64,000 nt of DNA from Streptomyces sp. NBC_00341 (GTDB lineage Bacteria; Actinomycetota; Actinomycetes; Streptomycetales; Streptomycetaceae): positions 1,860,001-1,924,000 of the forward strand of contig NZ_CP108002.1 of assembly GCF_041435055.1 (NCBI RefSeq). The letters run 5' to 3'. A program made the translations under genes and the position numbers. This document shows positions 29,473 through 61,463 of the stretch, one piece after another. The notes under the pieces are model-generated. The model made no database searches, was not told the origin of the DNA, and was given only the letters and a program-made list of their open reading frames with translations. The first letter of the stretch is position 1. The number at the start of each line of letters is the position of its first letter.

Positions 29473-31869
29473 TCAGCCGTCGGCCGTGGTGCGGCGGCGC
29501 TTCCACCAGACCAGGGCCGCGCCCGCTGCCGCGAGTGCGGCGGCGATACCCGCGATCAGCCCGACAGGTGTGTCGGAGCCCGTGTCGGCGAGGCCGCCGT
29601 CAGGGGAATGCGCGGGCGGGGTCTGGCCGCCGCTCCCGTTGCCGGTGCCCGGCGTCGACGGGCTCGGCGCCGGGGTCGACGGCGGGTGGGTCGGCGTGGG
29701 GTCGCCCGGGTCGGACGGGGTGGGCGTCGGCGTCGGGTCGGTACCGTCTGAGACCTTGCCGGTGTTGTTGCCGCCGAGGAAGGCCGTGTCGGTGTCGCCG
29801 TAGGCGGTGGTCGACTTCACGGCCGCCTTCACCGTGTCGGGCATCTCCGGGTTCTCCGCCTGGAAGCGGTCCTTCGAGATGTTCTTCTTGGGCTGCTTGG
29901 AGAAGTCCACGCCGCCCAGGAAGAACGAGAACTCCAGGACGGAGCCGTCCTGCGGGTACGTCCGCTTGAAGTGGAAGTCACCCTCGCGGAACGACTTCAT
30001 GTAGTCCGCGTAGACCTTGTCGCGGTCCCACTTCGTGCGCGAGGGCCAGGCGGTCGCGTCGTCGGAGCCGATGATCTTGTGGAATTCACCGGGCTTCACC
30101 GCGTCACGCTGCTTGATCCACTCGGCGGCGATCCGGGAGGTGTAGACGCTGCGCAGCTCGGAGTACTGAGGTGCGCTGTTGACGAGCTTCTCGACCTCGG
30201 GGATCGCGATCTGCTGGATCTGCCGGAAGTTGTGCTCCTGGACGGCCTCCGGCTGCTCGCACTTGTTGCCCTCGCTGAAGTCGATCTTCGCGGCCTTGAC
30301 GTCCATGGGCGCGTCGAGGATGTAGAGCTTGCCGTCCTCCTCGCGGACCTGGGCCGGAGCGGGCTCGATGTAGTACCGGTACGTCTTCCAGCAGGGTGCG
30401 CCGTTGACGTGCTGGAACGAGTCCCACAGCCGGTTGCCGACCGGGTTGTCCGGGACCATCACCCGGGCCAGGTCGTGCTTCATCGCCAGGTCGGCCTCCA
30501 GGAGGACGCGGCCTGCGTCGGTCTTCGCGAGCTTGTCGTCCGTGACCTGGTCCGGCTGGTCGGGGTTGAGGTTCACCCAGAACCGGTTGGGGTGCAGTGA
30601 CAGCCAGGTGAACATCGCGTCGGACGAGAGGTCGATCTTCGCCCCGCCGCCCCATGAGGGGTTGGCGTCCTCGTCGTCGTTCATCCGGGCCTTGAAGCCG
30701 TAGTCCATGCCCTTGCCCTTGACGGGTTCGGTGACGTACCGCAGCTCCATGGTGGTGAAGTCGATGCCACCCGGGCCCCGCATCCGGTACGGCGCGCCGG
30801 GAGCCTGCCGGGTGACCGCCTGCCGGCGCTGGGCCTCTTCCTTCGTGCGGCCGGAGTTGCGGGCGAAGTCGTTGGCCGCGCCCCGGGAGCTGCCGCAGCC
30901 GGCCGCCTTGGCCGAGGCCAGGGTGGCGGCGGGAGGGCAGGCCCGGCCGCTGAAGGCCGGGTCCTGGCGGGTGTACCGGGGGTCCGGGGTGAACTTGGCG
31001 TCCGGCACGGCCCGGTGCTGGTACCAGGAGACGCCGTGCGCTCGCAGCCGCGCCTGGACTGCGTTGCTGGGCGGCTCGCCCAAGACGTACACGACCTTGT
31101 AGCCGCGCTTGGCCAGGGCTTTGTCCACGAGCAGCTGCTTGCTGTCGATCTGCTTGGTCCCGGACTTGAACTCGTAGATGATCTTGTCGCGACCGGTGGT
31201 CTTGATCGCGTCGAAGCGGCGGTCCTTCTTGACGTTGTCCTCGCCCAGCTCGTCGACGAGTTCCTGGAAGAGCTCCGGCATCTCCTCGGCCATCGAGTAC
31301 TGGCAGTACCAGTTCTTGCCGCCGAGCTTGAAGTACTGGGCGACCTCCTGCTCGTAGGCGTTGCCGCCGCGGCTGTTGGCCTCGCCGTTGACGTAGTAGC
31401 TGTTCACGTACTCGTTGAAGGTGCCCGTGTACGGCTTGGCCCCGCTGCTCTGGTTCTGCTTCCAGTACGCCCAGGCGTGCTCCGGCGAGGCGTTGGGGTA
31501 CTTCTTCGGGTCGGCCACGATCTTGTCCAGCACCTCGTCGCTGGGGAGTTCGAGGCCGGAGAGCGCCTTGCGGGGGTTGTCGTAGGAGTAGGTGCGCCTG
31601 GTGTCCCCCAGGGTGCGCCACTGGTACTTCCCGCCGGGCTTGAAGCCCGGCAGGCTTCCGAGGCGGGGTGCCTTGTTGGGTGTCTGGTACTTGCCGGTGC
31701 AGCTCTGGGGAGCGGCCTCGGCCTCCTGGACGTTGCCCAGGAGCGGCAGGCTGCCGGAGAGAATCCCGACGCTCAGCGCGAGGACGGCCGCGCGGCCGAA
31801 CCAGCTGGAGAGCCGTGGTATGGCGGTGGTCAAGGTGATGGTCCCATGGTCAGGGGGCCACGGGTTCAC
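29473..31869 (-). CDS. Secreted, LAXTG-sorted surface protein with PD-(D/E)XK nuclease-like domain
   Basis: This 798-residue exported protein has a signal sequence (residues ~20-52, cleavage near AEA-AP). The segment at residues 165-270 carries the restriction-endonuclease-fold set: Glu173 in the first helix, Asp220 in RRFDAIK, and Glu233-x-Lys235 in IIYEFKSG. A helix and strand (QLLVDKALAKRGYKVVYVLG) follow, as in Tox-REase domains. A second domain at about 380-480 (DFTTMELRYVTEP, then LHPNRFWVNLNPDQPDQV) is conserved-looking but of unknown role. A Pro/Thr/Ser/Gly wall-spanning stretch ends in LADTG (residue 760), a hydrophobic helix and KRRR, which is the class E sortase signal. The GTG at 31869 has no good ribosome site. 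No immunity partner is certain. Confidence 0.8.
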   Translation of the reverse strand: MNPWPPDHGTITLTTAIPRLSSWFGRAAVLALSVGILSGSLPLLGNVQEAEAAPQSCTGKYQTPNKAPRLGSLPGFKPGGKYQWRTLGDTRRTYSYDNPRKALSGLELPSDEVLDKIVADPKKYPNASPEHAWAYWKQNQSSGAKPYTGTFNEYVNSYYVNGEANSRGGNAYEQEVAQYFKLGGKNWYCQYSMAEEMPELFQELVDELGEDNVKKDRRFDAIKTTGRDKIIYEFKSGTKQIDSKQLLVDKALAKRGYKVVYVLGEPPSNAVQARLRAHGVSWYQHRAVPDAKFTPDPRYTRQDPAFSGRACPPAATLASAKAAGCGSSRGAANDFARNSGRTKEEAQRRQAVTRQAPGAPYRMRGPGGIDFTTMELRYVTEPVKGKGMDYGFKARMNDDEDANPSWGGGAKIDLSSDAMFTWLSLHPNRFWVNLNPDQPDQVTDDKLAKTDAGRVLLEADLAMKHDLARVMVPDNPVGNRLWDSFQHVNGAPCWKTYRYYIEPAPAQVREEDGKLYILDAPMDVKAAKIDFSEGNKCEQPEAVQEHNFRQIQQIAIPEVEKLVNSAPQYSELRSVYTSRIAAEWIKQRDAVKPGEFHKIIGSDDATAWPSRTKWDRDKVYADYMKSFREGDFHFKRTYPQDGSVLEFSFFLGGVDFSKQPKKNISKDRFQAENPEMPDTVKAAVKSTTAYGDTDTAFLGGNNTGKVSDGTDPTPTPTPSDPGDPTPTHPPSTPAPSPSTPGTGNGSGGQTPPAHSPDGGLADTGSDTPVGLIAGIAAALAAAGAALVWWKRRRTTADG

Positions 31870-34070: not shown

Positions 34071-34946
34071 ATGCCCGAGCACGCCCCAGACCCATCCATC
34101 ACCCACTTCGGCCGAGGCGGCATGCGTCGGATCGCCCTACCCAGCTGGTACGGAGCAGGGCTGTCGGGCAGGACACGCGGCATGCTGCACGACGTAGGTG
34201 TCCCATTGCACGTGGCACCGTACTTCACGGCAGCCGGCGAGACGGACGGCCTGACTCTCGGTGTGTTCACCGCCCGTGGAGGCCCCGCCCTGCGGGATGA
34301 GCGCGCGGACTGGGTGCGCGTCGGCACCGACCGCTTGGCACACCTGTGTGTCCGGCCCGACGGAGGCGTGCAGGGCGTGTTTGTCACACAACCGGAGTCA
34401 GACGTCTTCGTGAGTACGGATCTCAGCACCTTCAACGCGTCGCTGGCCGCCCTCGACCGCCGCCTGCCGGTGATCGCGGCCTCCACAAGCCTCCCCGTGG
34501 CAGCGGCCGCGTTCCGGGAGCTGAACGCGGAATTGCGGCAGATCGACGCGGCTGCATTCGAGGACCATGAGGGCTGGTGGCCACGCGTGTTGGACGACGT
34601 CCGTCACACCCTCAACTTCCCGTTCTCGTCGGCCTTCGAGTATGTCGATGACACGGGGCAGAAACAGATCTCCACGGCCGAGGCAGAGCCCGGGAGGCCA
34701 CACCCAGAAGAGCTCCTGTGGCAGCAGCTTTCCGCAGCCGGGGTCACCGCCGCACAGGTGCGCCGAGTGTATTGCGAGCTGGAACCCTGCATGATGCCGG
34801 GCCATTACTGCGCTGTCTGGATGCAAGCGCTCTTCCCTCAGGCGGAGTTCACTCACAGCTTCGACTACGGAGACACCGCGGGTTCCCGCGAAGAAGGCCT
34901 GAAGAGGCTGATGGCCCATGCCGCGCAACAGGAGAGGCAACAGTGA
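34071..34946 (+). CDS. SUKH-4-like domain fused to a nucleic acid/nucleotide deaminase-fold domain
   Basis: This 291-residue cytoplasmic protein has two parts. Residues ~15-150 look like a SUKH-4 immunity-type domain (RRIALPSWYGAGLSGRTRG, then LAHLCVRPDGGVQGVFV and DLSTFNASLAALDRRLPV). Residues ~205-275 have the deaminase-fold signature: HPEELLW with His211 and Glu213, then YCELEPCMMPGHYC with Cys240 and Cys247 (PC-x6-C), followed by AEFTHSFDYG. This matches the XOO_2897-like deaminase group. Catalytic residues appear intact, which is unusual for a simple immunity protein. It overlaps the next gene by 4 bp (GTGA). Confidence 0.8.
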   Translation: MPEHAPDPSITHFGRGGMRRIALPSWYGAGLSGRTRGMLHDVGVPLHVAPYFTAAGETDGLTLGVFTARGGPALRDERADWVRVGTDRLAHLCVRPDGGVQGVFVTQPESDVFVSTDLSTFNASLAALDRRLPVIAASTSLPVAAAAFRELNAELRQIDAAAFEDHEGWWPRVLDDVRHTLNFPFSSAFEYVDDTGQKQISTAEAEPGRPHPEELLWQQLSAAGVTAAQVRRVYCELEPCMMPGHYCAVWMQALFPQAEFTHSFDYGDTAGSREEGLKRLMAHAAQQERQQ

Positions 34947-36628
34947 GCGAACAGATATGGGGCCGACCGGACTCGGGGCGTGAGCCTGCCGGAGCGGCGC
35001 TGCTGTCCTGGCTGGCAGACCCAGACGCTCCACGGCTCTGCCTCTTGACCGGGAAAGAAGGCTGTGGAAAGTCTGCCCTGCTGGCCTGGCTGGTTGCCCA
35101 CGGTTCCGCGGCCGGAGCTCACCCACAACGCCGTGTGCACGGATTCGCCCCGCTCGCCGGCCAAACCGTGGCGACCGCCGCCTGGGCGCTGGCGCAGCAG
35201 TTGTCCTTACCCACACGCACTCCCGGGGAGTTCGTTCGCACGCTGAGCCTCGACACACGGCGCACGGTTCTCGTCCTGCCCGACTTACATGCGGCCGAAG
35301 ACCCGAAAGCCATCGGCGAACTGGTGCTCCACCTCGCGCGGCACGACCACATACGGCTAGTGGTGGAAGTCCGTGCCGGTTCACCGGAGATCCCGTCCCT
35401 CATGGCGTTGGGCCCGGCCGTGATGGACCTGGACCACGAGCAGTGGACAGATGACGCGCGCAAGGCGGCAGGGAGTGAGACCGCATCCGGTACACCCGGA
35501 GTGAACAGCCGTGACACAACGCTGGAGGGCTGGGACGGCGACCTTGCCGACGCCGCCGCCGTGTGCGCGGCAGAACCGTGGCAGATATCCCGGCACTATG
35601 ACCTGTCGGAGGAAGGCCATGGCGGTCTGCGTGCGGCCTGGCTACGCGCCGGGGGGTCGCTGACGCGTGACCAAAGCGCCTCCGACCGGGCATTGACGCT
35701 CCTCGCCGCACTGGGTGACGAGGCCGATCCCAGGCTGAGTGAGCAACTCGCCTCGCTTGCCTCCGGAGCGGCGTGGCGTCTGATCTGGCGCCGTGTCCGT
35801 AATGACATCAGTCCTCCGTGGCCGGGGCCGGTCCGAGCCATGGCAGCACGCCATTCAGCTCGCGTGAATTCCCTGGTAGCCGCTGATCACCAAGGAACCG
35901 TCCGCGTGCTTGATGTACGCGATGGTGCGCCGCAGTGCCGACTCCCCGCTCCGATCGACGGAGCGTGTTCCGTCAGCGCGCGCCCCGACGGAACGGTGCT
36001 TGTACTGGATGGGCACGGGCACCTACACGCACAGCACACACCGGGTGAGCCCAGACAGAACAGGATCAGGGCATTGTTCGACGATGCCCAGGGCCCTCTG
36101 GAGCGCCTCGTGGAGGCTGTGAACAAGCGTCGAAGCGGCAGCCGTAACACTGCGGTTGCTTCATCCGAGACCGTCCTGGCTGTGGCGGACGGCTTCGGCT
36201 CAGGGCACGCCTACGCGCTTGAGGACGAACGGGAGTGGCATCGCACCGTTCAGCTCCACAGCGGGGCCATAACCGCTCTGACCATACTGGAACCGCCCAT
36301 CGGTCACAGCAACGAACGTGCCCCTCTCATCTACAGCGGTGGCATCGACGGGCGCGTCCGCGTCTGGCAGCCCGCGACAGCGCCACTCTCCACCCCTGTC
36401 GCCATGCGGCGATGCCCGGTGACGGCACTGGATGCCGCACACATCACGGACTTCGGCCCCGTACTGGCGATCGGCTGGGCAGACGGACTGGTCGAGTACG
36501 TGGTCCTGGACACGGAGACGGTCCATGCGTTCCGCCCCGGGCCCGCAGTCCGGGGCGTGGCACTCCTTCATGACGGCAAGTTGGCAGTCGGCACGGACGA
36601 GACACTCGTGTGTCTGCAGCCCCTGTGA
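34943..36628 (+). CDS. P-loop NTPase with C-terminal beta-propeller-like region
   Basis: This 561-residue protein has a Walker A motif GKEGCGKS at residues 37-44 and a Walker B-like strand RRTVLVLPDLH near 110. Helical segments follow (LADAAAVCAAEPWQISRHYD). From about residue 300 there are repeats with a WD40 look: VNSLVAADHQGTVRVLDVRD, APLIYSGGIDGRVRVWQPAT and LAIGWADGLVEYVVLD. NTPase plus propeller is the architecture of STAND-type sensors. It is translationally coupled to the SUKH-4/deaminase gene (GTG at 34943 inside that gene's stop, GGAGAGG upstream) and precedes the deaminase toxin. A role in sensing or controlling the toxin module is an inference. Confidence 0.78.
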   Translation: MSEQIWGRPDSGREPAGAALLSWLADPDAPRLCLLTGKEGCGKSALLAWLVAHGSAAGAHPQRRVHGFAPLAGQTVATAAWALAQQLSLPTRTPGEFVRTLSLDTRRTVLVLPDLHAAEDPKAIGELVLHLARHDHIRLVVEVRAGSPEIPSLMALGPAVMDLDHEQWTDDARKAAGSETASGTPGVNSRDTTLEGWDGDLADAAAVCAAEPWQISRHYDLSEEGHGGLRAAWLRAGGSLTRDQSASDRALTLLAALGDEADPRLSEQLASLASGAAWRLIWRRVRNDISPPWPGPVRAMAARHSARVNSLVAADHQGTVRVLDVRDGAPQCRLPAPIDGACSVSARPDGTVLVLDGHGHLHAQHTPGEPRQNRIRALFDDAQGPLERLVEAVNKRRSGSRNTAVASSETVLAVADGFGSGHAYALEDEREWHRTVQLHSGAITALTILEPPIGHSNERAPLIYSGGIDGRVRVWQPATAPLSTPVAMRRCPVTALDAAHITDFGPVLAIGWADGLVEYVVLDTETVHAFRPGPAVRGVALLHDGKLAVGTDETLVCLQPL

Positions 36629-36727
36629 CACGGGCTCCCATGACCGGTTCTGACCACCCTTGGTTGACTTCTCGTCAATTCACTTTGACGCTAAGGGAGT
36701 TGTAGACGTACGGGGGAGGTGACGAAC

Positions 36728-38308
36728 GTGGGTAAGAAACTGCCCGACGACCTTGTCGAGGTACTGGACCTGGTGGGGGTGAACTGGCCCAACATCGACG
36801 AGGACGAGGTTCGCGGCTCGGCCAAGGACTATCGCAGTCTCGCGGAGGGCCTTCGTGACGTAATCACCGAGGGCAACAGGGCGTGTTCCCACATCGTCGG
36901 CGGCAAGAGCAAGGGCAAGACAGTCCAGGCCATCGACCGTCGCTGGGGAAAGCTGACCACGAAGGACCTCACCACCTTCATCGGCGCCCTCGACGACCTG
37001 GCCGGCGCCCTCGACGACTGCGCCGGCCTCATTGAGGGATGCAAGATTGCTTGCATCGCTGAACTGAGCTCAACTGCGGCGGCCGCCACTGCCGGCGTCA
37101 TCGGCATGTTCTTCACCGCAGGCCTCAGCGGCCTGCTCAGCGCAGCCGCTATCGGCCTCTGCCGCATCGCACTGCACGAGGCCATCGACTATGCGGTCGG
37201 CGAGATCACCTCGGTCGTCACGGACAAGATAGAGACGACGATCCTCGGGAAGATCGAAGACCTGTTCACCGATCAGCTCGACGCCCACGATGACGGCAAC
37301 ATCGACCAATACACCGCCGGATCGGGCGACATGGCCCAAGACCTGGTCATAGAGTTCGACGAATTCGACAAGGCATCCGGAGGCTACGACGAGACCAGGC
37401 GCAACTTCGACAAGAAGAAGAACGAGCACAAGACCGGCGGCACCAAGCGCCGCAGCTCCGTCAAGAAGGACAGCCGATTCCACAAGCTGGCCACGGTCAT
37501 GGACAAGGCAGAGGACGCCGTAGAGAAAAAGGCCGACGAGACTGTTGACGTCCTGGAGAAGCACGGCGGCAAAATCGATGCCAGCAAGAAGGGGCACGAA
37601 GAGAACGAAAAGAAAACCAAGACGGATCTCGACGGCTGCGACACCGGAAATCCAATGTACATGGTCAATCTAGATGGCTCCGTCGTTCAGCTGAACGCAA
37701 ACGGCACAACCTCGCCTGTGAGCAAAGCTGATTCATCGGGCATAAATATGCTGCTCACGGAGAACGGGGGCACCCGAACCTGGCGTCCCCGCGCCGGAGA
37801 AAACAACCCGTACAGCGTGGCGGGGGCGGACACCGACCGCGTCACGTCCAAACCCATCAAACCCGGCTCCACTGAGCTGGCACGGGCGACACAGACGGCC
37901 CGCTACGCACGTAAGGACTGGACCGGAAACAACTACGCTGCCGGTTCGTTCAACGACGGCAAAGGACACCAGTTCACACTGGTCGGCTACAGCAAGAGCG
38001 TCCACTCCGAACGCTCCGTCGGGTACCCCCTGTTAAAAGCAGATCAACAGGCTGGGCTCAAGAGTCTGTACACCGAGCGCGAGCCCTGCCAGAAGGCCCC
38101 CTCCTTCTGCGATCGCTGGACCGCCAAGTACTTCGGCAAAGACCTGCCCGTCAGCCACTCCCAGTCGTATGATCAATCTTTACCGCGGCAACCCGGCGAG
38201 ACAGACTGGAAGTACGGCAGAAGAGTTGACGCAGAGCATATTCAATACCGCAAAGACCTCAAAGACTGGTACAAGACTCACACACCACTCACGCCATACC
38301 AGAGCTAA
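36728..38308 (+). CDS. Polymorphic-toxin-type protein with C-terminal deaminase domain
   Basis: This 526-residue protein has a helical N-terminal region of about 100 residues resembling WXG100/ESX-type secretion domains (WPNIDEDEVRGSAKDYRSLA, then ALDDLAGALDDCAGLIEG). A hydrophobic segment follows (GVIGMFFTAGLSGLLSAAAIG). A long charged, Lys/Asp/Glu-rich coiled region (residues ~215-305) leads to a C-terminal deaminase fold. That tip has VHSERSVG with His426 and Glu428, and YTEREPCQKAPSFC with Cys454 and Cys461 (PC-x6-C). It should deaminate nucleotides or nucleic acid in a target cell. I chose the GTG at 36728 because GGAGG lies 8 bp upstream; the GTG at 36719 overlaps that site. DNA GC is clearly lower than in the flanks. 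Confidence 0.83.
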   Translation: MGKKLPDDLVEVLDLVGVNWPNIDEDEVRGSAKDYRSLAEGLRDVITEGNRACSHIVGGKSKGKTVQAIDRRWGKLTTKDLTTFIGALDDLAGALDDCAGLIEGCKIACIAELSSTAAAATAGVIGMFFTAGLSGLLSAAAIGLCRIALHEAIDYAVGEITSVVTDKIETTILGKIEDLFTDQLDAHDDGNIDQYTAGSGDMAQDLVIEFDEFDKASGGYDETRRNFDKKKNEHKTGGTKRRSSVKKDSRFHKLATVMDKAEDAVEKKADETVDVLEKHGGKIDASKKGHEENEKKTKTDLDGCDTGNPMYMVNLDGSVVQLNANGTTSPVSKADSSGINMLLTENGGTRTWRPRAGENNPYSVAGADTDRVTSKPIKPGSTELARATQTARYARKDWTGNNYAAGSFNDGKGHQFTLVGYSKSVHSERSVGYPLLKADQQAGLKSLYTEREPCQKAPSFCDRWTAKYFGKDLPVSHSQSYDQSLPRQPGETDWKYGRRVDAEHIQYRKDLKDWYKTHTPLTPYQS

Positions 38309-38332
38309 GCGGAACACGGCAGGACAGTTGAG

Positions 38333-38917
38333 ATGATCTTCGAACTTTCTCGCGATGAGCTTATTCGTACCTTTGGCGAGGAGCGAGTCCATCAAGCACC
38401 TTCGAATACGGCACGGGCGGCCGGCTTCAGCGGTGATGCCCTAGAATTCCTCACGACCATCGGACTACCGGACAGCGAATTCATCTCTTTTCCCCGGCTT
38501 GACGCAGAGGGCTTCGGATTCCACCCCGTCCCGGTCGACGAACTCGGCAGTACGTGGAACCTACCCGCCGCCGCTGCCAACTGGGTCTTCCTCGGGAACT
38601 TCGAGATCAGTGCCGTCGTAGCCGACACGCGAACAGGTGAGCTACACCAACTGGCCGAAGGCATCATGCGCCCAATCCCGCTTCACCGCGACCTCTCCTC
38701 GCTGGCCCACACCATTACAGGGCTGACAAGAATCGTCGGAAGCCTCCCAGAGGACTACGAGGAGGACGAAGAGCTCATCGAAGCCTTGACGGAGTCCCTG
38801 GACACCTTCAGAAACGAGATCAAGAACAAGGATCCACGCCCCTTCGGTGACGAGCACTCCGAGTGGGTTGAAATCATCACCAGCATCGGAGCCGGCATCT
38901 GGGGGCCGGGACAATAG
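38333..38917 (+). CDS. SUKH-4 family immunity protein
   Basis: This 194-residue soluble acidic protein matches the SUKH-4 pattern: LRDELIRTFG-like start (LSRDELIRTFGEERVHQAPS), FLTTIGLPDSEFISF, NWVFLGNFEISAVVADTRTG, EGIMRPIPLHRDLSSLAHTI and an acidic end DYEEDEELIEALTESLD. It begins 24 bp after the deaminase toxin gene, the usual place for a cognate immunity gene. It presumably binds and blocks the deaminase tip in the producing cell. The domain is related to the N-terminal half of the protein at 34071. Confidence 0.88.
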   Translation: MIFELSRDELIRTFGEERVHQAPSNTARAAGFSGDALEFLTTIGLPDSEFISFPRLDAEGFGFHPVPVDELGSTWNLPAAAANWVFLGNFEISAVVADTRTGELHQLAEGIMRPIPLHRDLSSLAHTITGLTRIVGSLPEDYEEDEELIEALTESLDTFRNEIKNKDPRPFGDEHSEWVEIITSIGAGIWGPGQ

Positions 38918-44325: not shown

Positions 44326-46122
44326 ATGGACTTTGCGACGCTGAAGGCGCTCAAGCCGTCGGAGTTCGAGGATGCCGCGGACGCGTACCGGGCGACGGAC
44401 GAGATGGCCAACGCGGCCAAGGACACCGTCGACAACCAGATCTCCGCGGGGATACGTAACCAACTCGCGGGCGCGACGGCGAAGGCAGCCCTGCAAGAAC
44501 TGGCCGGGCTGTCGAAGAACTTCCAGTACGTACAGACCGAGTGCGGGTTGGTGAGCACCGCGCTGAACGGCTTCGCGTTCGACATGGCTTCGGCCAAGCG
44601 GAAGCTGGAAGCGGCGATCGAGGACGCACAGGCTGACCACTGCACGGTGCACGCGGACGGTTCGGTCGGCTTTCCGGCAGGCAGGAAGCCGGGCGAGGAG
44701 AAGGACGCCGCGGGCGGCACCGTGACCGGTAGCGCGGGAGGCAATCCGACATCCGACGCCCTGGACCGCCAGGCAGCGAGCATTCACCCGAACCCGCACT
44801 ACGGTGCGGCCATTGGCTATGCCGACCGGATAGCGGATGCCTTACAGGAGGCCACTGACGCGGACGCGAAGTGGGCACCGAAGCTCCGCTCCCTCCAGGC
44901 CGACGACGACCTGGTGGTCTCGAACCGGGACTGGACGGACGTGACGTCCGACCGGGGTGGGGTGCTCAAGGCCGCCGATCCTTACCTGGACAGCATCAAG
45001 GGCCCGCCGAAGGAGGCCACCCCCGAGGAGAACGCGGAGTGGTGGAAGAACCTCACCCCGGAGCAGCAGGCCGACTATCTGGCCGTCCATCCGAATGCCA
45101 TCGGGTCGATGAACGGCCTCCCGTCCGACATTCGCGACGACGCGAACAGAATGGTTCTGGACGAGACGACGGCGAAATACCAGCTGGATCTGAACGCCAT
45201 TCCGAAGGAGCCGGCCAAGTACACCCCCAATACCAGCGGAGGCTACCCCGCTGTCCTCATCAGCCCGGAATGGCAGCGCTGGCACGACAAGTACGGAGCC
45301 AAGAAGGCCAGGATGGAGGGCGTGCTGAAGGGATCGAAGGCCATCCAGGACCGCTTCGACCGCACAGGCGAAGGCGGGCTTCCCGAGGCATACCTGCTCG
45401 GCTTCGACCCCACCGGCCTCGGGGACGGAAAAGTCATCCTCGCCAACGGGAATCCGGACACAGCCGACCACGTGGGCGTCTGGGTCCCCGGTACGAAAGC
45501 GAGCCTGGAATCCGTCGAAGGGGACCTCGGTCGTGTCGAACGGCTCTGGGCCCAGAGTCACCGCCTCAATCCTGACCAGAACGTCTCCACCGTCTTGTGG
45601 CTCGACTACAACGTGCCGGACAACGTCTTTCCGCAGGCGACACGCGGGGAGTACGCGGCAGAGGGCGGCCCACGACTCCACGACTTCTTGCAGGGGAACG
45701 GCGTCGCGCAACAGGCTGACGACGGCAGTCGCGCGCACACCACTGTCGTCGGGCACAGCTACGGCAGCACGGTGGTCGGCGTCTCGGCGCAGTCGGGAAG
45801 CTGGGACGACCCCCAGGCCGCCGACGACTACGTCTTCGCGGGCAGTCCCGGTGTCCAGGCGGATCGCGCGGCGGACCTGGGTGCCGGAGCCGACCACGTG
45901 TGGGCCATGGGCGCCCCCTGGGACGATCAGATAGTCCGGCAGGGCGGCCGATTCATGGGACTCGGTGACAACGGGATCATTCCCACCGACGAATCCTTCG
46001 GCGGGAAGATCATGACAAGCGACGCCGGCGGGCACACCGGATTCTACGACGACAACTCCCTCAGCCTGCGTAATCAGGCAGCCGTCATCGCCGGTAAATA
46101 TGACAAGGTGATACTTGAATAG
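44326..46122 (+). CDS. DUF1023-type alpha/beta hydrolase with N-terminal WXG100-like helical domain
   Basis: This 598-residue protein begins with a helical region (LKALKPSEFEDAADAYRATD, then KAALQELAGLSKNFQYVQTE; residues 1-110) like type VII secretion targeting domains. An Ala/Gly linker and a middle region follow. The C-terminal alpha/beta hydrolase of the DUF1023 group has the nucleophile in VVGHSYGSTVVG (Ser478), a plausible acid in the VFAGSPGVQADRAADLG region and the His in GGHTGFYDD (His570). A lipase or esterase activity is likely. It lacks a Sec signal, so export, if any, would be by a type VII-like route. It overlaps the first of two lipoprotein genes by 8 bp. An effector-immunity relation is inferred. 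Confidence 0.85.
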   Translation: MDFATLKALKPSEFEDAADAYRATDEMANAAKDTVDNQISAGIRNQLAGATAKAALQELAGLSKNFQYVQTECGLVSTALNGFAFDMASAKRKLEAAIEDAQADHCTVHADGSVGFPAGRKPGEEKDAAGGTVTGSAGGNPTSDALDRQAASIHPNPHYGAAIGYADRIADALQEATDADAKWAPKLRSLQADDDLVVSNRDWTDVTSDRGGVLKAADPYLDSIKGPPKEATPEENAEWWKNLTPEQQADYLAVHPNAIGSMNGLPSDIRDDANRMVLDETTAKYQLDLNAIPKEPAKYTPNTSGGYPAVLISPEWQRWHDKYGAKKARMEGVLKGSKAIQDRFDRTGEGGLPEAYLLGFDPTGLGDGKVILANGNPDTADHVGVWVPGTKASLESVEGDLGRVERLWAQSHRLNPDQNVSTVLWLDYNVPDNVFPQATRGEYAAEGGPRLHDFLQGNGVAQQADDGSRAHTTVVGHSYGSTVVGVSAQSGSWDDPQAADDYVFAGSPGVQADRAADLGAGADHVWAMGAPWDDQIVRQGGRFMGLGDNGIIPTDESFGGKIMTSDAGGHTGFYDDNSLSLRNQAAVIAGKYDKVILE

Positions 46123-46618
46123 GCGAATTTCGAAACTTGGATTCATTGTCACCATATGCGCCCTGGCGATGGCGTGTTCGAACGGAAAGGAGGCGGCGGT
46201 GAAGACGCGGGACAGCGATATCGTGAAGGCGGACACCGAGAGAACATCCAGCCGGATTCTTGAGATGCTCGACGTCAAGGGGAAGGTCACGGAGACGGGT
46301 GCGATGACGTCACCTTGCTCGGACTACGACTCCGCGGAAGAGGTCTACCGCGAAAGTCACCCCTGGAGCATTTACAAGGCCTCCTTTGCCGATATGCAAA
46401 AGGGCGTGGAACGTCTGCGGGCTGAGCTCCCGAAAGACGGCTGGAAGATCGTGAAGGACGGCAGGGACGGATCTCAGCTCAACAGTCCGCAGATCATCGC
46501 GGAGTCCAAGGGTCGGGAATTCGCAGTCGACGTACGACTGCACAAAGCGAGCAAAGTCGGCAACTCCCCGCCCCTGTTGGAGGTCACCGTCGAATCAGCT
46601 TGCTATCGGCCAAAATAG
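46115..46618 (+). CDS. Lipoprotein, first of a tandem pair
   Basis: This 167-residue protein has a short signal (NRRISKLGFIVTICALAMAC) with the lipobox LAMAC, lipidated at Cys21. The mature domain has one alpha/beta-looking unit (ASFADMQKGVERLRAELPKD, then GWKIVKDGRDGSQLNSPQII). The TTG start at 46115 lies inside the end of the hydrolase gene with AAGGTG 6 bp upstream. A paralogue follows at 46750. Being lipid-anchored outside the membrane and coupled to a probable secreted lipase-like protein suggests an immunity role; this is an inference. Confidence 0.8.
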   Translation: MNRRISKLGFIVTICALAMACSNGKEAAVKTRDSDIVKADTERTSSRILEMLDVKGKVTETGAMTSPCSDYDSAEEVYRESHPWSIYKASFADMQKGVERLRAELPKDGWKIVKDGRDGSQLNSPQIIAESKGREFAVDVRLHKASKVGNSPPLLEVTVESACYRPK

Positions 46619-46679
46619 GTGACCGCCCAGGGCAGGCGAGGTGCGAAAGGCCCTGCTGGGCCGATCGGCTCCGCGCCAT

Positions 46680-46755
46680 GGACAGCAAAGCCCCCTCGGC
46701 CTGCGCAGCCAGGCTGCCGTCATCGCTGGCGCATACGACAAGGTGAAACTTGAAT
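46680..46755 (+). pseudogene. Duplicated 3' fragment of the DUF1023 hydrolase gene
   Basis: The frame reads LGLRSQAAVIAGAYDKVKLE and a TAG stop. It matches the authentic hydrolase C-terminus LSLRNQAAVIAGKYDKVILE. The fragment ends at the TTG of the second lipoprotein gene exactly as the real gene ends at the first. It is the scar of a tandem duplication with a period of 635 bp. Confidence 0.9.
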
Positions 46756-47292
46756 AGGCGATTTGCCACACTGGGTTTCAGTATCGCGCTATGTGCACTG
46801 GCGGTGGCGTGTTCAGGAAAGGAGGCGGTAGTGGAAACACGGGACAGGGATACCGCGATGGCGGATGTCGAGCAGGCGTCCAGCCGGATTCTGGAGATGA
46901 TCGACGTCAAGGGGACGGCCACGGAGCCGGGGGCGATGACGATGCCCTGCTCGGATGACGACCACCAGAAAGAGCCCTACTATGCATGGCACCCCTGGAG
47001 CCTCTACAAGGCGCCCTTCGCTGAGCTGCAAAAAGGCATGAACCGGCTGCGGGCCGAACTCCCGAAGGACGGCTGGACGATCACGAAGGACGGCAGAGAC
47101 GGCACTATCGGCAACAGTCCGCAGATCGTCGCGGAGTCCAAGGGGCGTGGAGTCATGGTCGACGTAAGACTGCACAAAGAGGTCAAGTCCCAAAAGACCC
47201 CGGCCATGCTGGAGGTCACCGTCCAATCGCGTTGCTACCGATTGCCGGCCACCCGGACGGCAACACGGGACAACCCGCCGGCTTGGCCGTAA
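46750..47292 (+). CDS. Lipoprotein, second of a tandem pair
   Basis: This 180-residue paralogue of the preceding lipoprotein has the same TTG start context, signal NRRFATLGFSIALCALAVAC and lipobox LAVAC (Cys21). The core is highly similar (SSRILEMIDVKGTATEPGAM, LQKGMNRLRAELPKDGWTIT, GNSPQIVAESKGRGVMVDVR). Differences are scattered, including a hydrated Asp/His cluster (SDDDHQKEPYYAWHPW). About 14 extra residues follow the shared CYRL end. Divergence after duplication would fit recognition of variant partners. Its end lies just before the bidirectional terminator shared with the suf operon. Confidence 0.82.
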   Translation: MNRRFATLGFSIALCALAVACSGKEAVVETRDRDTAMADVEQASSRILEMIDVKGTATEPGAMTMPCSDDDHQKEPYYAWHPWSLYKAPFAELQKGMNRLRAELPKDGWTITKDGRDGTIGNSPQIVAESKGRGVMVDVRLHKEVKSQKTPAMLEVTVQSRCYRLPATRTATRDNPPAWP

Positions 47293-54159: not shown

Positions 54160-57100
54160 TCAGATCAGATCGGGCCGTTGCGTCACCCGGATGGAATTGA
54201 TCAGGGTGTCGCCCCTGATCGCGGACAGTCCCACCTCCAGCCCGCCGTCGGTGACCTTGACCGTGAAGGTCTTGGCCAGCGCCGTGCGGACGCCCCCGGA
54301 CTCCAGCCGGACGTCGATGTCGGAGACCTTCTCGGCGCCCTCCGCCGTCACGTCGAAGACCCGCTGTCCGGGCTTCATCGCGGCGGGCTCCGCGAAGCCC
54401 AGCTCTACCTCGTAGGTGCCGTTCGGAACGGCGTCGAAGCGGTACTCCGTCACGCCCTGGCGGCCCGAGCGCAGCAGCTGCTGCTGCCGGGAGCCGGCGG
54501 CGCCCGCGATGTCCTTGCGGGTGTACGTCGGCGTGGTGGCCCTGCCGACGTAGCCGTAGGAGCCGTCCGCGTACCCGAGGTCCGGCGACCAGGTGTCACC
54601 GGCCCCGTCCACGGAGGCGGTGTCCGCCCCGACGTCGATCCCCGTCCGGTAGGCGGGCACGACAACCTCGATCGGCAGCGAGAGGGACGGCGCGCGGCCG
54701 CTCTCCGAGGCGATCACGAGAGTGCCGGTGAGCACCGTGCCGGGCGTGGCGGCGGTGGTGTCGAAGGTGAGCGTGACCGCCTTGCCGGCGCCGGTGGCGA
54801 GGCTGCCGGAGGCCGGGGACACCTTCAGCCAGGCCGCGCCGTTCTTCTCCGCGACCGTGTAGGCGGCCGGGGCTCCGCTGTTCGTGAGGGTGAGCGTGCG
54901 GGTGCGCCGCTCCCCCGCGGTCATGATCAGCTGCTGGTCCGCGTCGGTCTCGTACGACACCGCTCCGGTGCGCAGGGCCGTCGCGGTGCCCACCGCGGAG
55001 AGGCTCTGGAGCGTGAAGGTGCTGTTCCCGGTCATGTAGTGCGGCGCCGTGACGGAGATCCGGTGGCTCACCGCCGTGGTCGCCGGGATCTGCGTCAGGT
55101 AGCTGCCGTCGGCGCGCGTGCTGACGGTGTCGACCGCCGTGCCGCTCCGGGTGACCGCGACGGTGGCGCCGGACACCGGCTTGCCGTCGTTGGCGTCGGT
55201 GACCGTGCCGGAGACGACGGCGTGGCCCTCGGGCCGGAAGCGGATCGCCGTGCCGTCGCGCAGCGAGCGCTCGTTGAGGGAGTACAGGAACGCGTCGGTG
55301 CCGTCGTGGTTCTCTGCGCCGATCGTGGCGCCGCCGCCGTGCTCGAAGGCGCCGTCCCCGATGTCCTTGTAGTGGAAGGTGTACGTGCCGTCCTCGCTGA
55401 TCGTGGCGGCGAAGCCGATGCGCTGCGAGGGGTCCCGGGCGAGCAGCATGTCGCGCCACTCCACGACGTACTCGCGGTGCGGCGCGGAGCCCCGCACGGA
55501 CGTGTAGACGCCGGAGGAGGCGTCCGTGGCGAGCTGGTCCCAGAACGGGGAGAGCGCGCCGTTGGCCCCCGAGGTGCTGGGCAGGCCGCCGTTGTCACCC
55601 ATGTACAGCGAGCCGAAGACCAGCTGCCCGTCGCGGGTCACCCAGCCCTTGTCGTAGGTGTGCCCGTACAGGGCGACCGGGAAGGGGAGGGTGACGGGGG
55701 CGTAGGAGCCGGTCGGCGGGTTGAGGGTGAGCCGCGTGTCCCCGGCCGGGTACGCCTCCGTGGTCTGCCGGCAGGTGGTGCCGAAGACGTCTGCTCGGGA
55801 GGCGAGCGCGACGTTCCTGCTGTTGGCGCCCTTGGCCACGGCGACAGCGACGCCGACGGCGGCCGCGCAGTGGTTGAGCGGGGTCACGCCGAACCGGTAG
55901 CTGCCGACGGGCACGGTGAGTGTGTACCTGCCGTCGGCGCCGGTCTCGACGCGTACGGGCGTGCCCTGCACCTTGACCGTCACCTCGGCCTCGGGGCCGG
56001 ACGCGCTGGTCACGGTGCCCGTCACCGTACCGGTGGGAGCGGTGGTGAGCGCCGCGTCGTGGGTGACGGTCGTGTCCTCCGCTACGGTGACGTCGGCCGT
56101 CACGGTGACGTAGCCGAACTTGCTCACGGTCACCCGGTAGTCGCCGGCCACCAGGCGCGGGAGCGAGTACGTCCCGTCCGTCTTCGTGTGCACGCTCGCG
56201 TGCATCGGCCCGTCGACGTCGACCTGGATCTCGGCGGCCGGTTCGCCATCGGCGGTGACGGTGCCGGTGAGGGCGCCGACGTTCGTGCGCGGGGCGGCGG
56301 AGACCGCGGCGTACGCGTCGAGGCGGCCGTGACCGTAGATGTTGTTGAACTCCGCGGTGCCGCCGCAGGACGTCGCGTCCACATCGGTCGCCGCGTCGTT
56401 CAGGAGCGCCTCTGTCGCCGCGACGTCGCCGCGCAGCGAGGGCGCCGCCGACCAGATCAGGGCCACCGTGGCGGCGGTGTGCGGCGAGGCCATCGACGTA
56501 CCGGACTTCGCGACGTAGCCGCCGCCGGGCGCCGCCGAGCGGATGTTGACCCCGGGTGCGGCGATGTCCGGCTTGACCCTGCCGTCGACGCCGGGGCCGC
56601 GGGCGGAGAAGTCCGCGATCCTGTCGCTGCTGTCGAGGGCGCCGGAGGAGTAGGTGTTGTTGTACGCGCCCGGGGAGCCCGCGGTGTCGCAGGAGGGGCC
56701 GGAGTTGCCGTTGGAGAACGCGGGGAAGATGCCCGCGTCGCGCCAGCCCTGGACCATGGCCTGGTACCAGGTGTCGAGGGAGTCGGCGCCCCAGGAGTTG
56801 TTGATCACGTCGGGGGCGAGGTCCGGGCGCGGGTTCTCGCCGTCGGCGTCGGTGGGCGCGAGCATCCACTGACCGGCCGCGAGCAGCGCCGACTGGGGGC
56901 AGCTCTCGGTTCCGCAGCCCTTGGCGGCGATCCAGCTCGCGCCGGGTGCGACGCCGATGGCGTTGCCGTTGCCGTCGTCGCCGACCATGCTGCCCACCGT
57001 GTGGGTGCCGTGGCCGTAGTCGTCGCAGGGCGCGTCTCCGGCGCAGGTGCCGACGGCGTCGAACCAGTTGTAGGAGTGGTCGTAGGAGCCGTCGGCCTTC

Positions 57101-57738
57101 AGTCCCCGGTAGCTCGCCGCGAGCGCGGGGTGCCGGTAGTCGACGCCGGTGTCGATGCTGCCGATGACGACGCCCTCGCCGCGTACCCCGAACTCGTTCC
57201 AGACCTTGGGCGCGTTGATCCGGTCGATGTTCCACTCGACGCCGTTGACCTTGGGCTCCGTCGTGGCGTTGAGGGGCACGGGGAGCTTGACGGCCTCGTC
57301 GGCGCGGATCGAGGCGACCTCGGGGCGGGCGGCGATCTTCTCGGCGAGCGCCTTGTCGCCGGTGACCTCGATCGTGTTGCTGATCCAGTACGGCGTGTAG
57401 TGCGCGCCCGCGTTCTTCAGCAGCGCGCGCAGCGCCTTCTGGCTCCTGTCCGCGTGGGCGGTCTTCGCCTCGATGACGGCGCGGTCCTTGTCGGCCTTCT
57501 TCTTCGCCTTGCGGGCCGCCGAGGTGTCGGCCTGCGAGTCGAGCTGGACCCAGAACGAGACGCGGTCCTTGCTGCCGAGGGCCTTGAGCACCTGCCCGTC
57601 GGCCTTCCGGAGCAGCGCGGCGGGCTTCGGTCCGGGGTCGGCCGCCGCCGCGGGCAGCGCGCCCAGGAAGGGCGCCCCCACGGCGGTGGCCAGTGCGGCG
57701 GCGAACAGTCCTTGCCACCGGGGTCTGCGTCGGTTCAC
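54160..57738 (-). CDS. Secreted multidomain S8 subtilase, downstream tandem copy
   Basis: This 1,192-residue exported serine protease has a signal peptide (VNRRRPRWQGLFAAALATAV, cleavage near AAA-DP, residue ~33). A propeptide-like region to ~170 includes a Lys/Ala-rich helix. The S8 domain has Asp196 (SIDTGVDYRHP), His243 (DYGHGTHTVG) and Ser415 (GTSMASPH). Two carboxypeptidase-regulatory-like repeats, a lectin-like beta region, a BACON-like domain (TNSGAPAAYTVAEKNGAAWL) and a C-terminal malectin-like domain (IDVGADTASVDGAGDTWSPD) follow. I chose the GTG at 57738 with AGGAGGAA upstream. It is a paralogue of the gene at 57822 and lies 83 bp downstream of it. Confidence 0.93.
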   Translation of the reverse strand: MNRRRPRWQGLFAAALATAVGAPFLGALPAAAADPGPKPAALLRKADGQVLKALGSKDRVSFWVQLDSQADTSAARKAKKKADKDRAVIEAKTAHADRSQKALRALLKNAGAHYTPYWISNTIEVTGDKALAEKIAARPEVASIRADEAVKLPVPLNATTEPKVNGVEWNIDRINAPKVWNEFGVRGEGVVIGSIDTGVDYRHPALAASYRGLKADGSYDHSYNWFDAVGTCAGDAPCDDYGHGTHTVGSMVGDDGNGNAIGVAPGASWIAAKGCGTESCPQSALLAAGQWMLAPTDADGENPRPDLAPDVINNSWGADSLDTWYQAMVQGWRDAGIFPAFSNGNSGPSCDTAGSPGAYNNTYSSGALDSSDRIADFSARGPGVDGRVKPDIAAPGVNIRSAAPGGGYVAKSGTSMASPHTAATVALIWSAAPSLRGDVAATEALLNDAATDVDATSCGGTAEFNNIYGHGRLDAYAAVSAAPRTNVGALTGTVTADGEPAAEIQVDVDGPMHASVHTKTDGTYSLPRLVAGDYRVTVSKFGYVTVTADVTVAEDTTVTHDAALTTAPTGTVTGTVTSASGPEAEVTVKVQGTPVRVETGADGRYTLTVPVGSYRFGVTPLNHCAAAVGVAVAVAKGANSRNVALASRADVFGTTCRQTTEAYPAGDTRLTLNPPTGSYAPVTLPFPVALYGHTYDKGWVTRDGQLVFGSLYMGDNGGLPSTSGANGALSPFWDQLATDASSGVYTSVRGSAPHREYVVEWRDMLLARDPSQRIGFAATISEDGTYTFHYKDIGDGAFEHGGGATIGAENHDGTDAFLYSLNERSLRDGTAIRFRPEGHAVVSGTVTDANDGKPVSGATVAVTRSGTAVDTVSTRADGSYLTQIPATTAVSHRISVTAPHYMTGNSTFTLQSLSAVGTATALRTGAVSYETDADQQLIMTAGERRTRTLTLTNSGAPAAYTVAEKNGAAWLKVSPASGSLATGAGKAVTLTFDTTAATPGTVLTGTLVIASESGRAPSLSLPIEVVVPAYRTGIDVGADTASVDGAGDTWSPDLGYADGSYGYVGRATTPTYTRKDIAGAAGSRQQQLLRSGRQGVTEYRFDAVPNGTYEVELGFAEPAAMKPGQRVFDVTAEGAEKVSDIDVRLESGGVRTALAKTFTVKVTDGGLEVGLSAIRGDTLINSIRVTQRPDLI

Positions 57739-57821
57739 GTCGGGTTCCTCCTCTGGCCGGGCGGCGGCGGGTGAGCCCGACGCCGCCCGGATACGCACGT
57801 GGGCAGGGGTGGTGGCGGGTG

Positions 57822-60800
57822 TCAGCCGGCCGGGGTGAGGTCGGGCCGCTGGGTGATCCGTACGGCGTTGACGAGGGTCTCCTCGTCGGCGACGGCCACC
57901 AGGCGCAGGTTCAGCTGCCCGTCGGTGACCTTGACCGTGAGGGCCTTGGTGAGCGCGCGGTAGCTGCCGCCGGTCTCCTTGGCGATGTCCAGGTCGGGCA
58001 CCTGGAGGACGCCCTCGGCCAGCACGTCCGTGACGCGGCTGCCCGCACCGGCCCTGCCGAGTTCGGCGAAGTCCAGGTCGATCCGGTAGACGCCGTCGGG
58101 CACCTGGTCGAAGCGGTATTCGAGGGCGCCCTCACGGGCGGTGCGCAGCAGCTTCTGGTCGGCGGTGTCCTCGATGGCGTTGGTGGTGCTCACCTTCGTG
58201 GAGGCGCCGACGAAGCCGTAGGAGCCGGCCGTGTACTTCCGGTCCGGTCCCCAGGTGTCCCCGTCGTGGTCGGTGAACGCCTGGCCGGCGCCGGCGTCGA
58301 GCGCGGCCTGGTAGGCGGGCACGACCAGGGTCACCGGCACCCTGGTCTCGGGTGCGCGGCCGCTGTCGGAGGCGATGACGACGGCGCCCTTCAGGACGGT
58401 GCCGGGTGTGAGACCGGTGGTGTCGAAGGTCAGCACGGCCTTCCGCTGCTCGCCCTTGCCGAGGCGTCCGGCGGCCGGGGCGGCGCTGAACCAGCCCGCG
58501 CCGCCGGCCTCCTTCACCGTGTAGTCGGCGGCGGAGGCGGAGTTGGCCAGGGTGAGGGTGCGCTGCCGTGACTCTCCGACGGGCACGACCAGGGTCATCG
58601 CCGCCTTCGGGGTGACGGTGACCAGGCCCGTGTCCAGCGCGGTGGCGGCGCGTTCGGTGCTGTGGGCGGCGAGGGAGACGGTGCGGGTGCCGGTCGTGTA
58701 GTGGGCGGCGGACACGGTGACCGTGTAGTCGGCCTTGTCGGTCGCCGGGACCTGTACAAGGTAGGCGCCGTCGCTCGCGGTGGTGCCGGCGGCGACCTGC
58801 TTGCCGTCGCGGGAGACGGTGACGGCGGCGCCGGAGACCGCCTTGCCGTCGTTGGCGTCGGTCACGGTGCCGGAGAGCGCCGCACTGCGGTCGGGCCGGA
58901 AGTCGATGGCCAGTCCGTCGGTGACGGCGTCCTCGTCGTACGCGTAGAGCAGGGAGTCGGTTCCGTCCGCGTTCTCGGCACCGATGGTGGCTCCGGTGCC
59001 CCGCGCGGCCGCGCCGCCGGAGGGGTCCTTGTAGTGGAAGGAGTACGTGCCGTCCTCACCGATCACCACGGAGAAGCTGAGCTTCTGCGTGCGGTCGCTG
59101 CTCGGCACCATGTTCCGCCACTCGACGACGACCTCGCGGTGCGGGGCCGCCCCCCGGGTCGCCCAGTACAGACCGCCGTTGTCACTGGCGATCTGCAGGT
59201 TGTCCCAGAAGGGGTAGAGCGAGCCGTTCGGCAGACCGGCGGTGGGCAGCGTCCCGTTCGTCGAGAGGTTGACGGACTGCTCGAAGGACAGGAAGCCCTC
59301 GACGTTCGCGGAGGCGCTGCGGTACGTCTTGCCGTACAGGGCGACCGGGAAGGGAAGCGCGATGCCGGCCGAACCGTCGTACTCGCTGCTGGTGTTCAGC
59401 TTCGTGGTGCCCGACGGGAAGGCCGCGTCCTGGGTGACCTGGCAGGTGGTGCCGAAGTTGTCGGTGCGGCTGGGCAGCGTGAGGTCCTTGGTGTTGGCAC
59501 CCTCCGCGGCCTCGACGGCGAACGTGCCGACGGCGGCGCAGCGAGAGGTCGGAGTGACCTTCAACTGGTAGCTGCCCGACGGGAGTTCGAGCGTGTAGCG
59601 GCCATCGTCCGCGGTGGTGGCGGTGACCGGGGCCCCGGTCACCTCGATCGTCGCCCCGGCCTCCGGGCCGCCCTGGGTGCGGACGGCGCCGGTGAGGGTG
59701 GCACGCGGTGCGACACGGAGATCGGCGTCGCGGGTCGTGGTGGCGCCCTCGGTGACGGTGGCGGTGGAGGTGGCGGTCACGTACCCGAACTTGGAGACCT
59801 TGACGGCGTAGTCGCCCACCATCACCTTCGGCAGTGCGTATGTGCCGTCCTCGCCGGTTGTCGCGGTCGCGTACATCGGTCCGTCGAGTTCGACGGTGGC
59901 GCCGGCCAGCGGCGAGCCGTCGGTGGTGACCGTGCCGCTCACCGCGCCGAGGGGACCGCGCGGTGTGGCGTTGACCGCGGCGTACGCGTCGAGGCGGCCC
60001 TCCCCGTAGACGTTGTTTTCGGCCGCGGTGCCGCCACAGGTGGTGTCGTCGGCGTCGGTCGCGGTCTGGTCGAGGAGGCGTTCGGTGGCCGCGATGTCGC
60101 CTCGGATCGCCGGGGACACCGACCACATCAGGGCGACCGTGGCCGCGGTGTGCGGGGAGGCCATCGACGTACCGGACTCGACGGCGTAGCCGCCGCCGGG
60201 CGCGGCGGAGCGGACGTCCACGCCGGGGGCGGCGATGTCCGGCTTGATCGCGCCGCCCTCGCCGGAGCCGCGCGAGGAGAACCCGGCGATCTTCCCGTCG
60301 CTGCCGAAGGCGCCGGAGGCGTAGGTGTTGGTGTACGCGCCGGGTGCTCCGGCAGTCGCGCAGTCCGGGCCCGCGTTGCCGTTGGAGAACGCCGGGAAGA
60401 TCCCCGCGTCCACCCATGCCTGGACCATCGCCTTGTACCAGGTGTCGACGACGTCGCCGCCCCACGAGTTGTTCACCACGTCGGGGGCGAGGTCCGGGCG
60501 CGGGTGCTGCCCGATCGCGTCGGTGGGCGCGAGGATCCACTGGCCGGCCGAGAGCAGCGCGTCCTGCGGACAGCCCGTCGTGGTGCACCCCTTGGCGGCG
60601 ATCCACTGGGCGCCCGGCGCGACGCCGATGGCGTTGCCGTCGCCGTCGCCGTCGTCACCGACCATGGTGCCCATGGTGTGGGTGCCGTGGCCGTAGTCGT
60701 CGCAGGGCGCGTTGCCCGGACAACTGGCCGTCGCGTCGAACCAGTTGTAGGCGTGGTCGTAGGAACCGTCTGTCTTCAGACCTCGGTAGCCGCCCTGGAG

Positions 60801-61415: not shown

Positions 61416-61463
61416 GCGGAACTCCTTGTCACAACCGGGGAAGCGCGAAGAGATGCCCGGATC

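Follow-up and report, generated by a model that had tools for sequence, protein, structure and literature searches.

Polymorphic toxins are usually treated as a toxin together with its antidote. The DNA considered here, a 64,000-nucleotide stretch of Streptomyces sp. NBC_00341 (the window; NZ_CP108002.1, positions 1,860,001 to 1,924,000), carries a four-gene locus with more than these two components. A toxin with a WXG-type N terminus and a C-terminal deaminase domain (the tip) is followed by imm, a SUKH-4 immunity gene. Upstream lie fus, in which a SUKH-4 domain is fused to a second deaminase domain, and ntp, a P-loop NTPase with a C-terminal WD40 propeller. The four genes very probably constitute one functional module, in which fus and ntp probably serve the toxin as a helper made of two proteins.

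Several elements of this arrangement have been described. In the available part of the survey by Zhang et al. (2012, PMC3482391), SUKH proteins are given as immunity for XOO2897 deaminases and are occasionally fused to toxin and immunity domains. Within the accessible portions of three further papers, WXG/LXG toxins are seen to adjoin immunity genes (PMC12691689), other NTPase conflict systems are described (PMC7159879) and extra cytosolic partners are named for type VII variants, none of them a pair like fus and ntp (PMC11217815). A full-text literature search, judged by titles and the starts of abstracts, returned nothing on this module; subscription papers lay mostly outside that search, and a description elsewhere is possible.

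Linkage of fus and ntp to one toxin clade

The original prediction had read this locus as a deaminase toxin, its immunity gene and an unusual coupled pair, and the four genes are present, with essentially those contents, at the positions it gave. The set is not a chance association. Among 80 named fus loci, a tip lies within 6 kb in 69, in at least four gene orders: 33 loci are arranged toxin-imm-fus-ntp, 29 fus-ntp-toxin-imm and two toxin-fus-imm-ntp, three have a divergent ntp, and in two ntp falls below the strict cut. The 69 tips were found by a deaminase profile and are therefore deaminases by construction. The 80 loci are the best of 93 found with two fus peptide patterns; they are loci rather than genomes, and some genomes contribute two (e.g., L065 and L068). 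By record titles they come from Streptomyces, Kitasatospora, Embleya, Streptacidiphilus, Actinacidiphila and Streptantibioticus, with one metagenome-assembled genome and one Saccharothrix-named record. Domain calls in fetched loci rest on in-house profiles and on a simple gene caller that uses G+C, and some copies of ntp, toxin and fus are frame-split and were scored in pieces.

The 11 loci without a tip alongside comprise five with an intact solitary fus, three with fus, ntp and a SUKH-4 gene (L096, L107 and L117), one that is degraded (L088) and two at contig ends (L059 and L085). In L096, L107 and L117 the pair has no other WXG toxin as an immediate neighbour. In whole-genome searches the contig of L096 proved to carry a tip at a distance of 13.5 kb; for L107 a remote tip match (3.7e-14) on a different contig was all that appeared, and the genome of L117 gave no tip match.

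Samples of whole genomes give a similar picture. Long fus relatives occur in 13 of 150 genomes of the genus, counting the genome of the window and a remnant in G100; in the 12 genomes other than that of the window, a WXG toxin gene adjoins fus in 11, in one of these (G117) in truncated form. The same 150 genomes contain 11 intact tips (E < 1e-39), all 11 adjoined by fus and ntp, a count valid for this toxin clade only because the tip profile was built from tips beside fus. Other matches to that profile comprise a tip split into two pieces (G143), a further copy that is partial (G043), two distant proteins (G149 and G113) and fus itself. A 295-genome sample of the genus chosen by ntp has this gene at E <= 1e-60 in 53 genomes: beside fus in 32, solely as an orphan in 20, where it occupies one conserved site of the chromosome, and as a remnant in one (G064). 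A tip accompanies 31 of the 32 pairs (weakest match 7e-25, L203) and a truncated toxin the other (G117). Full-length fus occurs in seven of 296 genomes sampled across the class, all of them Streptomyces. The companion set is thus both unusual and conserved, as had been proposed, and by the test that the original prediction set for an independent system the pair is nearly never found apart from the toxin.

Sequence divergence within the module was compared over 65 of the 69 tip-bearing loci, in fus-upstream (n=28) and fus-downstream (n=37) sets (Spearman correlations, all Mantel p <= 0.014). The SUKH part of fus tracks ntp (rho 0.80 and 0.81 in the two sets, respectively) and the tip tracks imm (0.61 and 0.76), while the values are 0.25 and 0.67 for the tip and the fus deaminase and 0.20 and 0.64 for the tip and ntp. 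The co-variation of fus and ntp bears out the earlier claim that they act as one unit. Because fus-ntp and tip-imm co-vary, and tip and fus do so much less in the fus-upstream set, the module consists of two sub-units, tip with imm and fus with ntp, which appear to re-assort in one half of the family. Mean pairwise identity is 0.58 for the fus deaminase, the most conserved part of the module, followed by the SUKH part of fus (0.45), the tip (0.44), the N- and C-terminal parts of ntp (0.41 and 0.37), the N-terminal part of the toxin (0.36) and imm (0.28). In the fus-upstream set fus lacks the close match to the tip that imm shows, as would suit a handler of a generic kind. The view of fus as a tip-specific immunity protein is weakened by this, an argument limited to the fus-upstream half in light of the value of 0.67 for the tip and the fus deaminase in the other.

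The deaminase domains, the NTPase and a sister pair

The toxin resembles type VII polymorphic toxins in its WXG-type N terminus (PF25547, WXG100_2, E 1e-9, 38.5 bits against a cut-off of 27), in its C-terminal toxin domain with an adjacent immunity gene, and in the presence of a secretion ATPase in the genome, which has three EccC-like open frames of 1326-1423 residues. Its XOO_2897-deam match (23.5 bits) and that of the window's own tip taken separately (26.4 bits) remain below the cut-off of 27. Each of 26 tips in an alignment reaches PF14440 at E<=0.01, and the profiles of the tip and of the fus deaminase align with an hhalign probability of 98.8; by these sequence comparisons the tip is assigned to the XOO_2897 family despite its sub-cut-off score. 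GTG 36728 is the likely start of the toxin: its ribosome site is the better spaced of the two, and the match to the toxin profile starts there. The numbering His426/Glu428 used in the original prediction fits this start and would become 429/431 from the alternative GTG 36719. The product of imm is a clear SUKH-4 protein (PF14435, E 1.3e-24, 87.7 bits, cut-off 25.5).

Both domains of fus score above the curated Pfam cut-offs (SUKH-4, PF14435, E 8e-17, 62.3 bits, cut-off 25.5; XOO_2897-deam, E 2e-24). H211, E213, C240 and C247 are invariant in an alignment of 55 sequences. Judged on the best fus segment per locus, the zinc/catalytic motif is present in 78 of the 80 pattern-selected loci (the two exceptions are frame-broken or degraded), a count that is biased because one of the two search patterns spans the zinc site, and in 31/31 loci picked by whole-protein or ntp match without use of that motif. 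The predicted zinc/catalytic residues, read from the alignments, are thus kept in the fus deaminase, and the modelled structure likewise agrees with the deaminase-type fold proposed for it. The AlphaFold2 model built on the 55 sequences (predicted local distance difference test, pLDDT, 91; predicted template modelling score, pTM, 0.87) has APOBEC3H as its top Foldseek match (probability 1.00, E 1.9e-3), accompanied by other APOBEC/AID deaminases and, lower down the list, by the toxin DddA (probability 0.38-0.51); no match falls below 1e-3. A search of the fus profile against PDB sequences gave zero matches at E<=1.

The propeller of ntp is evident from its family profile, which matches WD40 structures in the PDB at E 8.6e-30. 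Pfam matches to NACHT, AAA_22 and WD40 are weak and all below cut-off, the best NACHT/STAND/AAA match reaching 22.7 bits against 24.8. A Walker A motif (G-x4-GK[ST]) is present in 65 of 66 ntp matches of at least 450 residues, with R replacing K in L090. In the structure model (pLDDT 91.5, pTM 0.90) an alpha/beta P-loop domain and a helical part precede a region in which about six four-stranded blades can be counted. Foldseek pairs this model with WD40 proteins and places Apaf-1 (3shf) third (E 1.5e-12). The root-mean-square deviation of 17.4 Å over 839 columns means that this is not a real superposition; Apaf-1 and the modelled ntp have parts in common rather than a superposable whole. Orphan ntp loci (L132-L136, L138-L142, L146, L194-L197, L199-L202, L204, L205, L208 and L209) contain intact genes in some cases and decayed ones in others.

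A distant version of the pair is found in type VII secretion loci. The weaker ntp matches include ntpB (~650 residues), homologous to ntp over the P-loop and helical parts (hhalign 99.8, E 1e-27, 317 columns). Nineteen of 21 N-terminal-type matches were taken as ntpB loci; two in frames of 1565 and 1629 residues were excluded. In 16 of the 19 the same stretch encodes fusB, a deaminase domain followed by SUKH-4, the opposite domain order to fus; the gap between the two profile matches is 557-2085 bases in 15 loci and 4782 in L152, and in L155, L162 and L165 fusB was not found by profile. EccC is present in 12 of the 19 ntpB stretches, and EccD is confirmed by Pfam in L150. Two further loci found via fusB (L178 and L179), outside the 16/19 count, both contain ntpB and one contains EccC. 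The zinc ligands are lost in 16/16 fusB proteins (His to Pro, PC to PS, PA or SA, and the last Cys to Thr or Pro) with the rest of the domain well kept, and the deaminase fold therefore serves there without catalysis.

In a tree of 66 deaminase domains, 26/26 toxin tips fall on one side with support of 100/100 and 40/40 SUKH-fused domains on the other (15 from fus, 14 from fusB and 11 from a conserved Streptomyces protein). The second deaminase is thus related to that of the toxin, as had been supposed, but belongs to a separate lineage. The PC-x6-C spacing said to be common to both is indeed present in fus and in the toxin of the window; as an argument for kinship it does not hold. By first-match pattern the 69 toxin tips have x5 in 45 cases, x8 in 11, x6 in 10, x10 in two and x2 in one, and only fus holds the x6 spacing firmly. 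The idea that equal spacing marks deaminases of one kind is ruled out by this variability together with the tree split, and the match between the two domains of the window is a coincidence.

Some fus match occurs in 141 of the 150 genus genomes, mostly to a proline-rich protein in which an XOO_2897 deaminase precedes SUKH-4 (G000:C1:3462151-3463083; L051, 6134-8680, minus strand). Its motif HPEW...C-x6-C is present in 23/23 like stretches from 21 genomes. At L051 its neighbours are a WHH-nuclease/SUKH-1 gene, a divergent YwqJ deaminase and SUKH-3.

A proposed companion complex and its alternatives

The fus-ntp pair is most likely a nucleotide-gated cytosolic complex that either handles or guards the toxin. 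Handling is tentatively preferred: fus and ntp would form a companion complex that holds the toxin and hands it over. The four genes would then make up a polymorphic toxin module of the type VII (WXG) kind, with a predicted nucleic-acid or nucleotide deaminase as its tip, imm as the cognate SUKH-4 immunity protein, and fus and ntp as a companion complex that is inherited together and is all but obligatory for this toxin clade. Judging from the SUKH-4 family, the most likely binding partner of this part of fus is the deaminase tip, and ntp may act as a nucleotide-gated switch. In the cytosol of the producer the complex would keep newly made toxin safe and export-competent and then release it to the secretion ATPase EccC, the toxin itself being a presumed secretion substrate. 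The fus deaminase domain would serve chiefly in recognition, with or without catalysis. This account is favoured by the near-obligate linkage, by the sister pair in secretion loci and by an evolution that is generic rather than tip-matched.

A number of observations weigh against the companion complex. The zinc/catalytic residues are kept throughout fus, and a pure binding role does not need them. Tracking between fus or ntp and the N terminus of the toxin, the presumed export signal, is weak (rho 0.25-0.55), and in the fus-upstream set tracking of the tip is no better (0.21-0.35). An intact solitary fus, with neither tip nor ntp alongside, stands in five of the 80 loci (L056, L065, L109, L111 and L126). 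Searches of these whole genomes found a full module with tip and ntp elsewhere in that of L065, ntp but no tip in that of L109, and neither tip nor ntp in those of L056, L111 and L126. The orphan ntp of 20 of the 53 genomes, a long open frame in 12 and broken in the others, counts against a strictly toxin-bound role for this protein. Four genomes of another family (L168-L171) encode fusB-like proteins with no ntp, ntpB or EccC within the 17-kb stretch. Solitary fus and ntp genes, and fusB-like proteins without partners, are odd for an export factor, which would be expected to be useless in the absence of cargo.

Some of these points suit a guard with its own effector, which is somewhat unlikely overall. 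Here the SUKH-4 part would sense an incoming or leaking deaminase toxin, ntp would oligomerise on nucleotide exchange like STAND proteins, and the active fus deaminase would edit or deplete nucleic acid or nucleotides until the cell is stopped or killed. The active-site residues in all 31 loci chosen without the motif are what such an effector would need, the P-loop and WD40 build with its Apaf-1 match (not a true superposition) recalls a switch of this kind, and the three genomes with fus but neither partner, together with the 12 long orphan ntp frames, are easier to place. Against it, the pair nearly always accompanies the toxin, the homologous fusB of secretion loci has no zinc ligands, and the NACHT/AAA matches of ntp are below cut-off. 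A more elaborate version, in which fus-ntp is an NLR-like guard whose immunity domain senses, whose NTPase switches and whose deaminase is a captive effector, with the deaminase of fusB turned into a catalytically dead domain for recognition, an integrated decoy, is unlikely. A second layer of immunity is equally doubtful. In that case fus would be a broad second antidote with ntp as its helper, protecting the producer and its kin even if imm is mismatched; its SUKH-4 domain scores above cut-off, solitary fus and the three tip-less fus-ntp-SUKH-4 loci look like retained immunity, and Tde5 is, in the accessible part of the study on it (PMC13392607), a toxin shown to have two immunity proteins that are unlike each other. 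This leaves the intact active-site residues of the fus deaminase and the NTPase unexplained, and fus is far less diversified than imm (mean identity 0.45 for its SUKH part against 0.28).

The suggestion in the original prediction that the pair might be an independent defence system, with the toxin as a mere neighbour, fares much worse and is highly improbable, whether against phage or in general. It can draw on a domain make-up that resembles that of NLR-type defence proteins and on the three loci with a pair and no tip alongside, one of them (L117) in a genome without any tip match. The pair nonetheless adjoins 11/11 intact tips, and a tip accompanies 31/32 pairs. None of the four genes matches a PADLOC model at E<0.01 (at E 0.1 none for fus, toxin or imm, and for ntp only mad8 at 0.053), PHROGs gave no match and no phage record matches fus at E 1e-5. 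The candidate was rejected on this linkage and these negatives. The least probable reading, and a strongly disfavoured one, is that the genes have no functional link and merely hitch-hike on mobile DNA. The low G+C of the island and the plasmid-borne copies of fus described below would fit, but the same four genes are kept together in different gene orders, and secretion loci repeatedly contain a homologous, if distant, pair. The whole-genome searches of tip-less loci and the motif-unbiased counts left the odds of these readings unchanged.

Layout, surroundings and known systems

Table 1. Features of the four-gene locus (positions in the window) and of the sister pair (positions in its own locus)
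Feature	Position	Strand	Content	Basis
fus	34071..34946	+	291 aa; SUKH-4 ~34107-34598, XOO_2897-like deaminase ~34632-34919	Pfam, AlphaFold2, Foldseek
Predicted zinc/catalytic site of fus	34701..34811	+	H211-x-E213 ... C240-x6-C247	Alignment, motif counts
ntp	34943..36628	+	P-loop NTPase, C-terminal WD40 propeller	Profiles, structure model, Foldseek WD40
Walker A of ntp	35051..35074	+	GKEGCGKS	Pattern G-x4-GK[ST]
WD40 propeller region of ntp	35774..36625	+	Residues ~278-561	DSSP of model, profile against PDB, Foldseek
Toxin	36728..38308	+	WXG100-like domain at the N-terminal end; deaminase tip at the C-terminal end (H426-x-E428, C454-x6-C461)	
Deaminase tip of toxin	37925..38176	+		PF14440 match, hhalign to fus deaminase
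imm	38333..38917	+	SUKH-4 immunity gene	PF14435
ntpB-fusB pair	L150 4819-8196		Like pair in 15 more ntpB-chosen loci of the range L149-L167; frequently within a type VII secretion locus	

The GTG start of ntp at 34943 overlaps the stop of fus by four bases (GTGA); because it lies inside that stop, the two genes are probably translationally coupled. The island has a G+C content of 0.62-0.67 at 34-40 kb of the window, against 0.72 directly upstream and 0.68-0.71 directly downstream; further dips occur at 30-32 and 44-54 kb. Copies of fus are also present on four Streptomyces plasmids. On two of them, NZ_CP108606.1 (L213) and NZ_CP054921.1 (L214), type IV transfer genes adjoin the module in one case and an integrase in the other. 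As annotated on these two plasmids, one quartet is labelled SUKH-4 immunity, WD40, deaminase and SUKH-4, and the other plasmid has a hypothetical protein at the position of ntp. Horizontal transfer of the module is likely; its insertion site was looked for in 21 genomes and could not be placed.

Perhaps a second toxin/immunity module lies 5 kb downstream of the island (44326-47292). It would consist of a 598-residue protein, whose N terminus is WXG-like by eye and which contains an Abhydrolase_8 domain (2e-29), and of the next two genes, small, lipoprotein-like and similar to each other. At 29473-31869 a 798-residue protein has no Pfam match at E 1; its C terminus resembles a membrane anchor and, by eye, one stretch is possibly nuclease-like. 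Two large subtilases, alike in domain build, stand in tandem at 54160-61517.

For one Streptomyces toxin clade, no intact member was thus found that lacks the two additional genes, and these genes have distant counterparts in type VII secretion loci. Such linkage predicts a new step in the export, safe-keeping or sensing of deaminase toxins. In the fus and fusB proteins one immunity fold is naturally combined with deaminase domains that look active in some and are zinc-less in others, and these proteins point to the conserved deaminase-SUKH protein that is so widespread in Streptomyces.

The toxin has the same architecture as the WXG/LXG type VII polymorphic toxins with SUKH immunity (PMC3482391). 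The difference lies in the toxin-tied NTPase-propeller and SUKH-deaminase pair, which the available part of that source does not describe. Within the XOO_2897-like family (PF14440) both the toxin tip and fus are members, with HxE and C...C motifs, and fus forms a separate, SUKH-4-fused lineage. In Tde5-Tdi5a/Tdi5b (PMC13392607) there are likewise two proteins besides the toxin; as far as the accessible text goes, these are two inhibitors, with no deaminase fusion or NTPase described. Type VII accessory proteins such as Lap partners, EsaE and EccA resemble fus and ntp as extra cytosolic proteins encoded beside the toxin or the machine (PMC11217815, PMC10653861). In the parts of these papers that are available they are small WXG100-like partners, a chaperone and an AAA+ ATPase, and are set apart from fus and ntp by description only. 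STAND/NACHT NTPases with WD40 repeats of the Apaf-1 type share with ntp the P-loop, the helical part and the C-terminal propeller. In contrast to these proteins, ntp has NACHT/AAA matches below the Pfam cut-off, a single propeller and no effector of its own, the effector-like domain being located in its partner fus.

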